DNA of 45,287 nt, taken from assembly GCA_020851115.1 (NCBI GenBank), contig JADZDJ010000140.1:1-45287 (forward strand), written 5' to 3'. The notes beneath the pieces were generated by a model, which saw only the letters and a list, made by a program, of their open reading frames with translations, was not told the origin of the DNA and did not search any database. The position numbers and the translations under genes are program-made. Shown piece by piece: positions 4,339 to 32,891 of the stretch (its first letter is position 1; the number at the start of each line of letters is the position of its first letter). The stretch is from Pirellulales bacterium. Its GTDB lineage: Bacteria > Planctomycetota > Planctomycetia > Pirellulales > JADZDJ01.

Positions 4339-4520
4339 GCGGCCAGTGTACCGTTTTGATGCGACCCGATGAAGGGCCTCATTGGCAAAATGCTGGTCGC
4401 TAGAATCTGGATTTTAGGCGTTCGACCAGGATCGTCGAACCTGCGTCATTCATCCATCAGCTTACGTCAAACTCGTCTCACCCATAAATGGCACAGCGGT
4501 CAATCAGACTTGTGCGCAAT

Positions 4521-4560
4521 AAAAAACTCTGCCCGGCACTTTCGCACCGGGCAGAGTTTT
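4521..4560 (-). terminator. Rho-independent terminator of the Cys-rich gene
   Basis: A perfect 14-bp stem pairs 4523-4536 with 4547-4560 around a 10-nt loop. Read on the minus strand, the stem is followed by a run of six T (4526-4521). It lies 28 bp beyond the stop codon of the Cys-rich gene. Confidence 0.9.
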
Positions 4561-4587
4561 AATATTCAGTCAAGCATTCGTACCAAC

Positions 4588-5376
4588 TTAGTTGGCACGG
4601 ACGTACTTGCTGGCTTGGACGACGCGACGGGTACCAGGAATGGCAGCCGAAGGATCGGCCATTGGGGCCGGAGGCATCGGAGCGGCTTCACCGCTACCAG
4701 CAGCCGCCGGGGCCGGGGCCGCACCGCCGCAACCGCAAGCTGGCGCACAACCGCAGCTATTGCAGCAGTTGTTGCAGCTATTGCAGCTATTGCAGCAAGG
4801 CTTGCAGCACTTGTGGCAAGAGAACAGGTCGAGCAGCGAGCAGTGATGGCAGCACTTCTTGCAGCAGCAGCTATTGCAGCTATTGCAGCAGTTGTTGTTG
4901 CAGCCACAAGCTGGTTCGCAACCGCATGCCGGAGCGGCACTGCAGCCAGCAGCCGGAGCAGCAGCAGCACAAGCCGGTTCGCACGTGTTGCACGTATTGC
5001 AGCAGCTATTGCAGCAGCAAGACTTGTGGCAGCACGAGAACAAGCCCTTCAAACCGCAGAACAGGTCGCAACCGCAGCTTTTATGGCAGCAGTTGTCGCA
5101 GCACGTGTTGCAGCCACAGCCACTGTTGCAGCCGCAGGTGTTGTTGCAGCCGCAGGCATTGTTGCAGCCGCAATCGCATGCTGCTTGGCAGCCGCAGTTG
5201 TTGCAACCGCAATTGTTGCTGCACGACGAGCAGCAAGTCTTTTCACAACACGAAGGCTCGCAGCAACAGCTCGAGCCGCCGCCATACAGCATACGGTCGA
5301 GCAACTCGAACCCGTAGCTCTGGCCGGCCAAGCCCATGCTTAGCATGAGCGCTCCAAACACCAGTTTCAGTTTCAT
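4588..5376 (-). CDS. Secreted extremely cysteine-rich protein
   Basis: 262 residues with a Sec signal peptide (MKLKLVFGALMLSMGLAG). By my count about 65 residues are cysteine, roughly a quarter of the chain, arranged as CGCNN, NSCC, CCNSC and EPACGC units with frequent Asn, Ser, Gly and His. A longer motif recurs: DLFCGLKGLFSCCHKSC near the middle and LLDLFSCHKCC later, which suggests internal duplication. The last 50 residues are Pro/Ala-rich and cysteine-free apart from their start. A good ribosome binding site (AAAGGAG) precedes ATG 5376, and a strong terminator follows, so it is a stand-alone, probably well-expressed gene. Cys-rich secreted proteins occur in planctomycetes and have been linked to cell-wall material. 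Disulfide-linked envelope polymer or metal binding are both possible, and the sequence does not decide. Confidence 0.85.
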   Translation of the reverse strand: MKLKLVFGALMLSMGLAGQSYGFELLDRMLYGGGSSCCCEPSCCEKTCCSSCSNNCGCNNCGCQAACDCGCNNACGCNNTCGCNSGCGCNTCCDNCCHKSCGCDLFCGLKGLFSCCHKSCCCNSCCNTCNTCEPACAAAAPAAGCSAAPACGCEPACGCNNNCCNSCNSCCCKKCCHHCSLLDLFSCHKCCKPCCNSCNSCNNCCNSCGCAPACGCGGAAPAPAAAGSGEAAPMPPAPMADPSAAIPGTRRVVQASKYVRAN

Positions 5377-5974: not shown

Positions 5975-6328
5975 ATGGCCGACGCCAAACGCTACGAAGT
6001 CGCCGAGCTGGCCGAGATCCCAGTAGCAACTTGCCCTTGTGGAACGGCTCGCCGGGCCTTTATCAATGGCGATTCGCCGCTGTCCTTTCACCTTACGGAA
6101 ATATCCGCGAATGCGCAGCTCCGCTATCACCAACGGCATACCGCGTGTTACTGCATTTTATCCTGCGACCCCGACGCCAAAATGCAACTCGACGACGAGA
6201 TGGTTTCGATCTACTCGGGACTGTGCATTTTGATACCCCTTGGTGTGCGCCATCGCGTCGTCGACAAAATGCACGCCCTGATCGTTTCCGTGCCAAAATT
6301 TGATCCCGCGGAAGAGCGGTTTGACTGA
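5975..6328 (+). CDS. Small single-domain cupin protein
   Basis: 117 residues predicted to form one beta-barrel cupin. Motif 1 is represented by RYHQRHTACYCILS (residues about 50-63), and motif 2 by the C-terminal IPLGVRHRVV. The usual Gly and His/Glu metal ligands are only partly conserved, so enzymatic activity is uncertain and a binding or sensor role is equally possible. A CPCGTARR segment near residue 20 is unusual for cupins. ATG 5975 is the first start in the frame. The gene stands alone, 192 bp before the propeller pair. Confidence 0.72.
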   Translation: MADAKRYEVAELAEIPVATCPCGTARRAFINGDSPLSFHLTEISANAQLRYHQRHTACYCILSCDPDAKMQLDDEMVSIYSGLCILIPLGVRHRVVDKMHALIVSVPKFDPAEERFD

Positions 6329-6336
6329 ATGATGAC

Positions 6337-6429
6337 GAATGCGGAGTGCGGAATGACCAGCGATGAGCGGAGCCGAAAGTTCGCATTTCTGGCGTTCCAT
6401 CCTTCATGGTTCACGATCCATCGTTACTC
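6337..6429. repeat. Degenerate 7-nt-period array in the spacer
   Basis: Between the cupin stop and the propeller gene, 6337-6357 reads as three heptamers (GAATGCG, GAGTGCG, GAATGAC). 6395-6429 reads as five more (TTCCATC, CTTCATG, GTTCACG, ATCCATC, GTTACTC). The units are imperfect but the 7-nt phase holds within each block. It is the same kind of structure as the arrays near 13278, 20014, 21705, 30702, 31400, 31452 and 32577. Confidence 0.5.
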
Positions 6430-6520
6430 CTCCCGCTTGCTCCAGACCACGCGGCAACTTATCCTTAACATTACCCCACCTGCCTAATCCGGATCGCCGG
6501 AACCCACCGGGAGTTTCTTT

Positions 6521-13159: not shown

Positions 13160-13277
13160 CCCCACCATGAGTAAAGCAAAAAAACCGCCGGCGGTCGATG
13201 CCTTGCGGCAAGCGAACCACCGGCGGCTCGGGGGGAACGGATATAAAATGCAAAACTCAAACTGCGGAATTAGGAAT

Positions 13278-13305
13278 CATTTTTCATTTTGCATTTCTTA
13301 TTTTC
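13278..13305. repeat. Heptamer-period array ending at the secretin stop codon
   Basis: Four successive 7-mers, CATTTTT, CATTTTG, CATTTCT and TATTTTC, occupy 13278-13305 and stop exactly where the secretin gene's stop codon begins on the minus strand. The tract is AT-rich compared with its surroundings. Confidence 0.5.
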
Positions 13306-19970: not shown

Positions 19971-21701
19971 CTAGACGCTTTGCGCATCGAAGTACGCGCG
20001 CGAGACCAAATCCGATATCCAATATCCAAAATTCGAGGTGAATTCAAAATGACTCAAATTCAATAACCATGTTGAATGCCTTTGAAATTCGTACGTTGAA
20101 TTAATTTCGGATTTCGCGATGAGAATTTTGGATCTCTTGGATATTATCGCCGCGGATGGCGGAGTCGGCGCGGGCACCGTGCCGTCAGCGGGCGCTGCGC
20201 CCTCTGAGGGAGTGATACCCAATTTCGAAGGATCGGGCTTTTTCAGCAAGTAAGCGACACCGCTCACTTCCACGGGAATCAAATTTTGCTGCGGCATACC
20301 TGGCGTGCCCTGCATCGGCCCTGTCGCGCTGGGCGTCATTCTCATTCCACCGCCGACACCAGACTCGGGACTGAGGCTGCGCATTGGAGCAGGGCCACGA
20401 AACTCGCCTCGCATTCCGCCGCCGCCAGCGGACATCGGAGATCCGGTGCCGGTTGGTTCACCGACGTTGACTTCTCGAACTTCGAACGGCAGCGTCGAAT
20501 TGCGAAACGCAATCAACAATTCATCGATTTCCTTCGGATTTATGATCAATCTGACACGGAAGGGCATCAAATTAAATTCCGGCGGCGACTGTTCGACTTC
20601 GGCGGCGGTGGCCAGCGGCTTGCCATCTTCGGCCACGTAGCGAAAACCTTTCCAGATATCGTCAGAGTTGCCGCCGGCCGCGGCGGAATCGCTGGCTGGA
20701 GCACCGGGCATCATGCCGATTCCTCCCATCTTTCCCATGGTGCCTTGGGCCATAGCGCCCTTGCAGCGATCTTTGGGGTTTGGCAGTGCGCCTGCGGCCG
20801 GCCCTCCTTCTGGCCCACCTGCTAGCCCAGGTATCCCCATCCCCATTTTGGAGCCCATCATGTCGCCGCCCATTGATGCGCTGGGGGCTTTCACGCGCAT
20901 CACGCGGTGTCCATTACTGCTCATTCCCATTGTCGCCCCCGTCGCGCCGCTTTGCGCCAAATAGGCGACCGCCATGTCTTGGATTCCGGTGATGGAAGCA
21001 TCATGCGAGCCCGTGGCGCTCTTATTCACTTCAGCAATCACCTTGCAAAGTGCCTCATAGACCCAAAGCTCCTCTTGCGCTTGGCGGATGATGGCAATGC
21101 TGGGTGTTTCGTGCCAAGTAAACGTGTCAAAGATCGTTTGTTGCGATTGCGGATCCCAAATTACCCGATGATCGACAAAAACCGGCATCCCATTGGCGTC
21201 CGTCGGCCCCATGGGCTGGGGTAGGCCCCCGCTGGTGGTTTCCTGAGCGACTTCCGCATCGACCAATTTGGGCAATTCCTTCGCCAGTGCAAGCACGTTG
21301 TGTAGATAATAATCGCGCAGGAACAACTTCAGATCGGCCTGCTTTCCCTCTTCCACTTTGGCGATTCCGTCGAGAAAATCCTTTCGCAAGCTCTTTGGCC
21401 AAACGAACACTTGTTGCTTCTGCTTTTCATACAACGCCGCCCAGGCCGTGCTAATACTCGTTTGTGTTTCACCCGTTTTTTTTCCAATGCCGGCGTTCCA
21501 ATCGTCGTTGGGATGATCTGCGGAAATACTCTTGACTGCTTCGTATTTCGATTTAATTTGATCGCGGCGAGCCTTGGTCTCCGCCGAGAGTTTGCCCGAT
21601 GCCATCATCTGCACAACGAGGCCGATCAGCGCAGCCACCCCGCACAGGATCCAAAAATGATGCTTTCCGGCGACGACGAGAAATTGTTTGACCTTGTCCA
21701 T
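19971..21701 (-). CDS. PilO-position inner-membrane protein of the secretin cluster
   Basis: 576 residues. An N-terminal transmembrane helix (FWILCGVAALIGLVVQMM, about 16-33) is followed by a coiled coil (SAETKARRDQIKSKYEAVKS), the layout of PilO/GspM. Further on come a Gly/Met-rich block near 265-330 and a ferredoxin-like-fold candidate (FNLMPFRVRLIINPKEIDELLIAFRN) near 380-405. That is the sort of segment that pairs PilN with PilO. A Pro/Ala linker ends near residue 525. The final 50 or so residues are unlike the rest: they are AT-rich and encoded by a 7-nt-period repeat, so the original C-terminus was probably earlier. The start ATG 21701 is preceded by heptamer repeats rather than a clear Shine-Dalgarno. 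Confidence 0.75.
   Translation of the reverse strand: MDKVKQFLVVAGKHHFWILCGVAALIGLVVQMMASGKLSAETKARRDQIKSKYEAVKSISADHPNDDWNAGIGKKTGETQTSISTAWAALYEKQKQQVFVWPKSLRKDFLDGIAKVEEGKQADLKLFLRDYYLHNVLALAKELPKLVDAEVAQETTSGGLPQPMGPTDANGMPVFVDHRVIWDPQSQQTIFDTFTWHETPSIAIIRQAQEELWVYEALCKVIAEVNKSATGSHDASITGIQDMAVAYLAQSGATGATMGMSSNGHRVMRVKAPSASMGGDMMGSKMGMGIPGLAGGPEGGPAAGALPNPKDRCKGAMAQGTMGKMGGIGMMPGAPASDSAAAGGNSDDIWKGFRYVAEDGKPLATAAEVEQSPPEFNLMPFRVRLIINPKEIDELLIAFRNSTLPFEVREVNVGEPTGTGSPMSAGGGGMRGEFRGPAPMRSLSPESGVGGGMRMTPSATGPMQGTPGMPQQNLIPVEVSGVAYLLKKPDPSKLGITPSEGAAPADGTVPAPTPPSAAIISKRSKILIAKSEINSTYEFQRHSTWLLNLSHFEFTSNFGYWISDLVSRAYFDAQSV
20001..20147. repeat. AT-rich heptamer-period tract read as the 3' end of the PilO-position gene
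   Basis: The sequence changes abruptly from GC-rich coding DNA to an AT-rich tract. The clearest part, 20014-20034, reads as GATATCC, AATATCC, AAAATTC. Similar 7-nt spacing of ATTC/GAAT cores continues to about 20147. It is open in the gene's frame by chance or selection and encodes a tail rich in Ser, Phe, Asn and Trp. Confidence 0.55.
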
Positions 21702-21704
21702 GGG

Positions 21705-21751
21705 AGGGTTCAGGGTTCAGGGGTCAGGAGGTTCATCGTTCATCCATTGGT
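21705..21751. repeat. Heptamer repeats directly upstream of the PilO-position start
   Basis: On the plus strand AGGGTTC occurs at 21705-21711 and 21712-21718, followed by the variant AGGGGTC (21719-21725). GTTCATC then occurs twice at 21731-21744. On the gene's strand this is GAACCCT repeated, three bases before ATG 21701. The same unit precedes ilvC. Confidence 0.65.
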
Positions 21752-30556: not shown

Positions 30557-30691
30557 GGGAATATTTCGACTTTAGGTTGCGAACTCGGATCGCAGGGGGT
30601 TTGTCTTTGCAGCCAGCGTAAATTGAACATCTATTGTAACAGCCCTGCTCCAATGCATGAGGTGTCTGGCTGCTTGAAGAAATATGGATGG

Positions 30692-30764
30692 GATTCTGGC
30701 AGATGCTGGATGCTCGATAGCCTGATACTATCCAGCATCCAGAATCGAACAGCCAACATCCAGC
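30692..30764. repeat. Heptamer array with strong hairpin between aroG and ilvN
   Basis: 30702-30722 reads as GATGCTG, GATGCTC, GATAGCC. 30730-30764 reads as five further heptamers (ATCCAGC, ATCCAGA, ATCGAAC, AGCCAAC, ATCCAGC). Because the two halves are complementary, 30706-30720 pairs with 30728-30742 at 14 of 15 positions around a 7-nt loop. It lies about 70 bp before the ilvN start. Confidence 0.6.
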
Positions 30765-30831
30765 CCGGCTCTTGCTCACCCGCCCTAACTCAAGCTATCA
30801 TTTGGAATTACGTCACAAGCCAGGAATAAGT

Positions 30832-31386
30832 ATGCGCCACGTCATTTCCGCCGTCGTCCAGAACGTGCCAGGGGTGCTCGCCCACATTTCGGGCATGCTC
30901 GCCTCGCGCGGCTACAACATCGACAGTCTCGCCGTCGGCGAAACCGAAGACGCCCAACTTTCTCGAATGACCTTTGTCGTCGTCGGCGATGACCGCGTGC
31001 TGGAACAGGTCCGTCGCCAGCTCGAAAAAATAGTCACGGTAGTAAACGTTGACGATATCAGTTCGCAGGATTACGTCGAACGCGATTTGATGCTCATCAA
31101 GGTACGGGCATCGAGCGGGAAACGTCGAGAAATCCGCGAGTTGACCGACATTTTCCGCGGCCGGATCGTGGATGTGGCCAAAGACCAGGTGATCGTTGAA
31201 ATCTCCGGTCAGGAGAAGAAAATCGAAGCTTTCATCGACATGATGCGCCCTTACGGCATTGTCGAGTTGGCGCGCACAGGCCGAATTGCTATGGTCCGCG
31301 GCGTCTGCCGCCCCGACCCGAAAGCAATCGCTGAAGCGAACGCCGACGGTGTCGATGAAGAAACGGCACGAAGCTCATTGGCGTGA
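30832..31386 (+). CDS. ilvN: Acetolactate synthase small (regulatory) subunit
   Basis: 184 residues. It regulates acetohydroxyacid synthase, the first common enzyme of valine, leucine and isoleucine synthesis. The N-terminal ACT domain is clear: MRHVISAVVQNVPGVLAHIS, then GMLASRGYNIDSLAVG, with valine-binding residues in the family's usual place. The C-terminal domain (VERDLMLIKVRA through IVELARTGRIAMVRG) is complete. I use ATG 30832, not the upstream in-frame start at 30772, because the shorter form starts exactly where the family does. The catalytic subunit ilvB is not in this window. ilvC follows 123 bp downstream. Confidence 0.94.
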   Translation: MRHVISAVVQNVPGVLAHISGMLASRGYNIDSLAVGETEDAQLSRMTFVVVGDDRVLEQVRRQLEKIVTVVNVDDISSQDYVERDLMLIKVRASSGKRREIRELTDIFRGRIVDVAKDQVIVEISGQEKKIEAFIDMMRPYGIVELARTGRIAMVRGVCRPDPKAIAEANADGVDEETARSSLA

Positions 31387-31399
31387 AACGATATGAAGC

Positions 31400-31507
31400 G
31401 CTGAATGCTGAATGCTGAATAAATGAACGAAGTGCGGTAATCCTACAATTCCATTGATCATTCATCCTGTATCGTTATTATCCCGAACCCTGAACCCTGA
31501 ACCCTCC
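31400..31507. repeat. Heptamer arrays between ilvN and ilvC
   Basis: GCTGAAT is repeated exactly three times at 31400-31420. From 31452 to 31507 the sequence splits into eight consecutive 7-mers beginning CATTGAT, CATTCAT and ending ACCCTGA, ACCCTGA, ACCCTCC. Equivalently, GAACCCT is repeated three times at 31485-31505. The array ends two bases before the ilvC start codon. Confidence 0.7.
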
Positions 31508-31509
31508 GA

Positions 31510-32514
31510 ATGGCTGCTACCATCTATTACGACAAAGACTGCGATCTTTCCGTTCTCAAGAACAAGACCATCGCCATTTTGGGCTACGGCTCGCAGGGGC
31601 ATGCCCAGGCGCAAAACCTGCGAGACAGCGGCTGCAACGTGATCATCGGCCAGCGGCCGGGCAGCAAGAATTACGAACTGGCGGTTTTGCACGGGTTTAA
31701 ACCGCTGGCGGTCGAAGAAGCCACAAAACAGGCCGACATTGTCAATATTTTGCTGCCGGACGAAGTGCAGGGAGACATCTACCGCCAGCACATCAAGCCG
31801 AACCTCAAGGAAGGCAACGTACTGATGTGCTCGCATGGATTCAACATTCACTTCGGTCAGGTCGAACCTCCGTCGGGAGTTGATGCACTGCTCGTCGCCC
31901 CCAAAGGCCCCGGACATTTGGTGCGCAGCGAATTTGAAAAAGGCGGAGGCGTGCCGTGCTTGATCGCGCTGAGCCAAGACGCCAGCGAAACGACGAAAAA
32001 GATCGGCTTGGCCTACGCGAAGGGCATCGGCGGCTCGCGAGCCGGCGTGATCGAGACGACCTTTGCCGAGGAAACTGAAACCGATCTATTCGGCGAACAA
32101 TCGGTCCTCTGTGGCGGAGTCAGCGCGCTGGTGAAAGCCGGCTTTGAGACGCTGGTTGAAGCGGGCTATCAACCCGAGATGGCCTTTTTCGAGTGCATGC
32201 ATGAACTGAAGCTGATCGTGGATTTATTCTACCAAGGCGGCCTCAATTACATGCGATACAGCGTGTCGAATACGGCTGAGTTTGGCGACTATACGCGCGG
32301 CCCGCGAATCGTCAATGAACAAACCAAGGCCGAGATGAAGAAGATACTTCAAGAGATTCGCTCCGGCCAATTCGCCAGAGAGTGGATCCTGGAGAACAAA
32401 GCTAATGCGCCGGCCTTCAAAGCGACACGCCGTGCCGAGCGCGAACACCCAATCGAAGAAGTCGGCCGCAAGCTGCGAAGACTGATGCCGTGGATTAACG
32501 CCAAGGAAGTGTAG
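31510..32514 (+). CDS. ilvC: Ketol-acid reductoisomerase (NADP+)
   Basis: 334 residues, a class I enzyme. It isomerises and reduces acetolactate or acetohydroxybutyrate in branched-chain amino-acid synthesis using NADPH and Mg2+. The Rossmann motif [13 protein letters not shown] begins at residue 25; its following loop GQRPGSKN carries an Arg and Ser expected for NADPH preference. The C-terminal knotted domain includes [21 protein letters not shown] with the metal-binding Asp and Glu residues, then [13 protein letters not shown] and [13 protein letters not shown]. The gene pairs with ilvN in the same direction. No Shine-Dalgarno is visible because the leader is a heptamer repeat (GAACCCT). 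Confidence 0.96.
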
Positions 32515-32576: not shown

Positions 32577-32597
32577 AACCATCAACCATCAACCATG
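32577..32597. repeat. Heptamer repeat containing a start codon
   Basis: AACCATC occurs at 32577-32583 and 32584-32590. A third copy, AACCATG (32591-32597), ends in the ATG that starts the next gene. Confidence 0.6.
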
Positions 32598-32891
32598 CAA
32601 ACCGCCCCAGCCTATCCGCTCACAAAGACCGAAGCTGAGTCGCGCGACTTGTTTGCTCACTTAGCGCCTGGCGACCGCATCGCGGCCACGCACGAAGTGA
32701 AAGTCGGCTTGAAACGGTGGACCGCTAAGACCGTTGGTACGGTGGTCCGCTGCGAGCGGCGGCGGCATGGCCTGCATTTCCGCCGCAATTACGACGACAA
32801 AGTCTTCAGCGACTACCTCATCGTCCGCCGCGACGACGGCGAATTGACGACCGTGACGATGGACGAATTCACGGTGTTGCGACGGGCTTAG
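32595..32891 (+). CDS. Conserved small protein of unknown function
   Basis: 98 residues with no domain I can name. It is rich in charged residues and beta-prone: HLAPGDRIAATHEVKVGLKRW, then a basic segment VRCERRRHGLHFRRNYDDKV, ending LTTVTMDEFTVLRRA. The order could form a small SH3-like barrel with a nucleic-acid-binding surface, but that is inference. The start at ATG 32595 lies inside a heptamer repeat; the in-frame GTG at 32514 would overlap the ilvC stop and adds residues that look like translated spacer. The 80-bp gap to ilvC and the 60-bp gap to the radical SAM gene suggest one transcript. Confidence 0.6.
   Translation: MQTAPAYPLTKTEAESRDLFAHLAPGDRIAATHEVKVGLKRWTAKTVGTVVRCERRRHGLHFRRNYDDKVFSDYLIVRRDDGELTTVTMDEFTVLRRA

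Follow-up and report, generated by a model that had tools for sequence, protein, structure and literature searches.

The window analysed here is a stretch of 45,287 nt from the 5.2-Mb draft genome of a Pirellulales bacterium. It contains the genes ilvN and ilvC, separated by a 123-nt spacer (31387-31509) that carries arrays of 7-nt units (Table 1). The ilvN label is putative, resting on the naming in the original prediction and on gene order. Homologues of ilvC with 68-90% identity over the full length are present in nearly all relatives, and the loci with the closest ilvC include those of Pirellula sp. PB1.007 and other Pirellulales MAGs. The spacer shows 52 matches between positions 7 nt apart compared to 29.1 expected (z 4.8), and lag 7 is the sole clearly raised lag, the runner-up being lag 8 (z 1.9). 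The unit GCTGAAT is present three times, as originally described. The description of 31452-31507 as eight drifting heptamers had to be narrowed, because identities between neighbouring units are 6, 4, 3, 0, 5, 7 and 5 of 7, with 0/7 in the middle of the run; the stretch thus consists of two tracts, a CATTGAT/CATTCAT pair and one of ACCCTGA-like units, separated by chance-like sequence. The core of the ACCCTGA-like tract is (GAACCCT)3 at 31485-31505. The predicted RNA fold of the spacer is no better than that of shuffled sequences (z -0.5).

A lag-7 excess had also been claimed at eight further sites in the window, and it was found at all eight, each with p<0.05. The region 30680-30775, which contains both arms of a hairpin, has a predicted RNA fold with z -3.0 relative to shuffles, and the predicted fold of the 6325-6435 spacer is no better than shuffles (z 0.5). 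Elsewhere in the window, positions 4706-5219 hold dense 9-, 12- and 18-nt repeats (GCAGCTATT and similar) with overlapping ORFs near 4369-5376; as their period is a multiple of three, they probably reflect a repetitive protein or a strand-ambiguous ORF.

Table 1 Heptamer arrays and neighbouring genes in the window, and in-frame arrays elsewhere in the same genome.
Feature	Position	Strand	Lag-7 p (site)	Context
Degenerate GCGGAAT-like heptads	6325..6380	+	0.001 (6337 region)	Around and past stop 6328, G-side; lag-7 26 vs 13.6
Degenerate TTCCATC-like heptads	6385..6430	+	0.045 (6395)	C-side, weak
TCATTTT-like heptads	13277..13304	+	0.009 (13278)	Just past stop end (13306) of minus-strand ORF
CCAATAT-like heptads	20006..20029	+	<0.001 (20014)	Within 3' end of minus-strand ORF 19971-21701
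CCTGACCCCTGAACCCTGAACCCT (minus-gene sense; AGGGTTC on +)	21705..21728	-	<0.001 (21705)	Ends 3 nt before ATG of gene 19971-21701
(GTTCATC)2	21731..21744	+		C-side, spacer shared with 21705..21728 array
Degenerate GATGCTG/GATGCTC heptads	30690..30721	+	0.012 (30702)	G-side hairpin arm
Degenerate ATCCAGC heptads	30724..30764	+	<0.001 (30730)	C-side arm of hairpin with 30690..30721
ilvN, acetohydroxyacid synthase small subunit (putative)	30832..31386	+		Left neighbour of spacer; ORF call
(GCTGAAT)3	31400..31420	+		G-side array, 13 nt past ilvN stop
CATTGAT CATTCAT pair	31452..31465	+		6/7 identity between units
ATCCCGA ACCCTGA ACCCTGA ACCCTCC	31480..31507	+		C-side array, ends 4 nt before ilvC ATG
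ilvC, ketol-acid reductoisomerase	31510..32514	+		Right neighbour of spacer
(AACCATC)3	32577..32596	+	<0.001 (32577)	Last unit overlaps ATG 32595 of next ORF 32595-32891
In-frame heptamer arrays, UvrA/ValRS/MetRS/RluD-like/Lhr-type genes	L026:10904-18289 (C283), L023:7323-10688, L103:9128-11257, L022:13838-14947, L019:7803-12626			

The 7-nt period exceeds chance and is distinct at gene edges

Four lag-7 segments in the window reach a score of at least 12, compared to none in 60 dinucleotide shuffles, and six reach at least 9, compared to 0.25 expected. None of the 60 shuffles matches the window, and chance or an assembly artefact is ruled out for it. We then sampled 970 kb of the 5.2-Mb own genome and 619 kb of the 8.5-Mb genome of a relative, G006, masking coding DNA with a hexamer gene caller whose start positions are approximate. 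The spacers of the G006 sample contain 55 arrays at lag 7 versus 0-4 at non-harmonic lags, and those of the own-genome sample contain 5 versus 0-2. The G006 arrays are mainly intergenic (55 in 86 kb of spacer versus 8 in 511 kb of CDS), and in the own genome, with 5 arrays in spacers versus 11 in CDS, the density per kb is about twofold higher in spacers. Neighbouring G006 units are near-identical (1-6% mismatch per position). Long arrays of up to 80-168 nt occur.

Autocorrelation over all spacers is raised at lags 9, 12, 15, 18 and 21 besides lag 7, and the multiples of three most likely represent missed coding DNA. When the autocorrelation was computed only over the 70 nt next to gene edges (stop and start codons), lag 7 in the own genome gave z values of 7.3 upstream and 7.9 downstream compared to 1.1 in spacer middles, with lags 14 and 21 following; in G006 the values were 6.6, 11.8 and 5.5, respectively. 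The outcome that would have refuted the original claim, equally strong peaks at other lags, did not arise at gene edges, as the consistently high lags there were 7 and its multiples alone; over all spacers, other lags were raised as well. Among pooled named planctomycetes the edge test gave a lag-7 z of only about 2, indicating that the trait is patchy. By distance alone, 30 G006 arrays lie within 8 nt of a gene edge versus 20.6 under random placement, and 14 versus 7.8 in the own genome; because this edge hugging is mild in G006, the edge spectral test is the better evidence.

Contrary to the original description, the arrays are not confined to spacers, and several lie in coding linkers. The own genome has in-frame arrays in UvrA, an Lhr-type helicase, an RluD-like pseudouridine synthase, ValRS and MetRS. 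The repeat (GGGTTCA)n translates to GSGFRVQ and is stop-free, and the opposite strand contains TGA; every ACCCTGA-family array seen in these genes has its G-rich strand as the sense strand. The UvrA and ValRS arrays lie within linkers whose length varies among orthologues, the net gain in the ValRS linker being only about 3 residues. At the array, MetRS has about 20 extra residues compared to PDB 7ulz, and the RluD-like protein about 37 compared to PDB 11wx.

Arrays are polar

The left edge of spacers carries arrays that are G-rich on the plus strand and the right edge arrays that are C-rich, independent of gene direction. Left versus right counts are 14:3 versus 4:15 in the own genome (p 6e-4) and 30:6 versus 11:33 in G006 (p 2e-7). 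The G006 spacers with at least two arrays contain 28 G-then-C pairs and no C-then-G pair, and this order is kept even between unlike words. Different words make up 27 of the 37 array pairs, and the same word occurs inverted in 10, compared to 4.7 expected. Among the listed positions of exact AAAATCC arrays in G006, each close pair seen runs minus then plus, for example in C21, C29, C121 and C193. Among arrays within 15 nt of an edge, the sense strand is G-rich in 29/31 of those after stops and C-rich in 23/27 of those before starts, so that 52 of the 58 edge arrays fit the polarity rule. Exceptions occur in G229 at a spacing of 244 bp (C57 and C148). As a separate observation, opposite-strand arrays 244 bp apart in C11, C57 and C148 of this genome resemble the ends of small mobile elements.

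Two close array pairs lie in coding linkers, in the RluD-like gene and in UvrA, and both are G-then-C; with n=2, this points to polarity as a property of the island and not of stop and start codons. General spacer composition was rejected as the source of polarity, since spacer edges with the arrays masked show a weak GC skew, between about -0.11 and +0.03 for the own genome and no more than 0.05 from zero for G006. This polarity of the arrays is new here.

Words vary within and between genomes while the period persists

The samples contain 26 distinct units in the own genome and 26 in G006. The commonest is ACCCTGA, found in 19/81 spacer arrays in G006 and in 9/36 in the own genome (13/24 in a first own-genome sample), where its share is inflated because the sample was partly chosen for ACCCTGA matches; a long tail of other words follows. 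Several frequent units, such as AAAATCC and AAATTGC, lack the GGG runs of G-quadruplexes, and the arrays were thus not filed as G4 repeats. TAACTGA is not among the units listed for either genome. The tandem (ACCCTGA)3 occurs in 15 of the 197 genomes of the order, with 376 occurrences in G006, and is absent from both same-family genomes sampled; its reversed control has no match in the 197 genomes. A looser CCCTNNN search gave matches in 22/119 genomes across the phylum, mostly with words of their own (CCCTTAT, CCCTGCG, CCCTTTT, CCCTGTC, ACCCTNN). In the ACCCTNN units of G229, the A is 92% conserved even though the search left it free, and neighbour identity at the two N positions is 0.42 and 0.41, compared to 0.47 and 0.31 from base frequencies. 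This pattern is unlike fresh slippage and suggests a maintained core and spacing.

The period is common to genomes, while one or a few words dominate within each. The earlier view of a constant period with varying units is supported, but not the view that the units are all unrelated and no repeat family is involved: AGGGTTC at 21705 and GAACCCT at 31485 are reverse complements of each other, and ACCCTGA recurs across the order. Islands were also noted in other genomes. Loci L315 and L324 of G228, a 2.6-Mb genome, contain very dense GGGAAAA/TTTTCCC islands forming long purine/pyrimidine hairpins, and L299 and L311 of G229 are near-identical islands on two contigs. Locus L197:1-20975 of a member of the Desulfohalobiaceae contains GAGTGAG heptads as well as degenerate heptads of TAACCAT/TAACAAT, so the trait extends beyond planctomycetes.

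The flanks of ilvC in 29 relatives bear out a constant period with a varying unit. Only lag 7 is clearly raised there, with z 3.0 upstream and 5.6 downstream, and unlike words lie beside the orthologous gene. Upstream, GAACCCT is found in G051 and the own genome, AACCAAG/AACTAAG/AACCTCG/AACGAAG/AACCCCC in G014, which belongs to the genus of G051, and CCCTAGC/CCCTAAT/CCCGAGT in G034. Past the ilvC stop the words are GGGGAGT in G051, GTTTTCA in G016 and G032, and GGCTGTC in G047. The closely related G016 and G032 (L226/L227) share a conserved left arm, and the right half of their spacer has been replaced. Thus, the word turns over, whereas the period and the polarity are retained.

Discussion

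The explanation we favour, tentatively and at somewhat less than an even chance, is that the polar islands of 7-nt repeats arise by copying with a 7-nt step in unconstrained DNA, accompanied by word turnover. A local mutational process would copy 7 nt per event, most simply by slipped-strand copying, which we infer as the mechanism. It would act where no coding constraint applies, as at gene edges, and also in protein linkers when in frame and stop-free. The seed word would be whatever local sequence is present, so that units would vary from island to island and from species to species at an unchanged step of 7. Units would then decay by point mutation and be overwritten by fresh rounds of slippage, and polarity may stem from strand-asymmetric copying at 3' ends or hairpin arms. 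Slippage is supported by the near-identical units of G006, the long arrays, the lag-7 signal with harmonics at 14 and 21 and the diversity of units, and further by the edge concentration, the varying words at ilvC and the arrays in the length-variable linkers of UvrA and ValRS. Mismatch repair is inefficient on loops as large as 7 nt. MutS is present in all 18 genomes tested, array-rich and array-poor alike, so the arrays do not require mismatch repair to be lost, and we rejected such a loss as the cause. The 28:0 order and the 52/58 edge polarity are not predicted by slippage, and slippage alone does not account for a step of 7, as opposed to 6 or 8, or for arms with the G side first. Nor does it suffice for the near-identical dispersed islands L299 and L311, which need duplication or transposition.

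A possible but less probable reading is a selected RNA or DNA element, in which a core repeated every 7 nt beside starts and stops would serve a single-strand-binding protein or a hairpin while the other bases drift. The fixed core and free remaining bases in G229 are consistent with such selection, as are the C-rich arrays that end a few nt before an ATG, the G-rich arrays that begin at stops, and the Beggiatoa TAACTGA repeats just upstream of starts, which have been proposed as regulator sites (PMC4679880). Strong hairpins are predicted in G006 (fold z -9.8), in G228 (z -6.3) and at 30680-30775, but 31387-31509 and 6325-6435 fold no better than shuffles, and a hairpin was therefore rejected as a universal function. 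The linker arrays of UvrA, ValRS and MetRS are without an obvious role of this kind, and selection is further at odds with the patchy distribution and the two same-family genomes that lack the ACCCTGA array. The insertion of a small palindromic mobile element (MITE, REP or Rickettsia-palindromic-element-like) with heptamer-array ends, which we regard as improbable, would produce the G-then-C order, including that of the two coding-linker pairs, and the similar island copies on two G229 contigs. In most pairs, however, the words of the arms differ, with 10 same-word inverted pairs versus 4.7 expected; island sizes also vary widely, the net gain in ValRS is only about 3 residues, against about 37 extra in the RluD-like protein, and no core sequence common to the islands was seen.

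We hold it unlikely, although less so than such an element, that an undescribed DNA-synthesis or repair process operates in several phyla; this process would have a mechanically fixed 7-nt step and polarity, with the G-rich 3' strand of each flank directed inward, and would use local sequence as template in building and overwriting intergenic DNA and protein linkers. Templated 3'-end addition at breaks by a telomerase- or DRT10-like enzyme, whereby each end would receive its own G-rich tail before the ends are joined, would account for G-rich strands running away from both flanks with independent units, and DRT10 is known to make tandem-repeat DNA from an RNA template (PMC12632851). We nevertheless consider it very doubtful: the DRT10 motif differs in length between systems (9 nt in one), whereas the present arrays keep one step and vary in word, and many words per genome would require many templates. 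A profile search of the array-bearing genomes G051 and G229, both drafts, also gave no match to the PF00078 reverse transcriptase. Beyond the window, chance or assembly artefact is scarcely credible as a general cause. The genomes are drafts and several long arrays lie at contig ends, but the pattern recurs in many independently assembled genomes, including the single-contig G007, and inside conserved genes.

The original prediction had placed heptameric repeats in some cyanobacteria and knew of nothing like these arrays. The first statement is too narrow and the second does not stand, as such repeats are on record in Xanthomonas, Nostoc and Beggiatoa (PMC4692102, PMC4679880). Two Xanthomonas genomes contain 186 and 183 GGGAATC arrays with 70 and 75 convergent pairs, and their G-rich arrays lie close to the ORF on their 5' side and have heterogeneous (GGGANTN)n units (PMC4692102). 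The planctomycete arrays share with these and the Nostoc GGGGA(C/T)T repeats a tandem unit of 7 above chance, a mainly intergenic location, a G-rich strand near its 5' neighbouring ORF, convergent plus/minus pairs, heterogeneous units, and variation in length and sequence between related species (PMC4692102). They differ in that Xanthomonas and Nostoc each have one dominant, G-quadruplex-capable word per genome, whereas here there are many, several without GGG, and arrays are also found in coding linkers. As cited in the same paper, the cyanobacterium Calothrix likewise has several heptamer words in one genome, three in number. The Beggiatoaceae TAACTGA arrays are similar in lying a few nt upstream of starts and in being patchy across phyla, but they consist of a single conserved word, with related words rarely repeated and inverted arrangements almost absent, one indirect repeat being reported (PMC4679880).

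An excess of heptameric simple repeats in prokaryotes was described by Mrazek et al. 2007, and the hypothesis that 7-nt slippage is tied to the polymerase footprint was already raised there, as cited and quoted in PMC4692102. Our data agree on the excess at unit length 7 and on the slippage idea; in so far as that study is represented in PMC4692102, it was a statistical survey, and the polarity, gene-edge and ortholog-turnover results are from the present work. The literature searched gave no description of planctomycete heptamer arrays, and one may exist beyond it. The planctomycete arrays thus extend an already reported, poorly explained kind of bacterial repeat, whose 7-nt excess was noted in 2007 and is without an accepted cause. 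Dozens of words at one step, a strict G-then-C order and turnover at orthologues separate the period from the word, so that slippage, selection and insertion can be tested against each other. The findings also illustrate how the DNA between genes, and in-frame linkers within essential proteins, can be remade.
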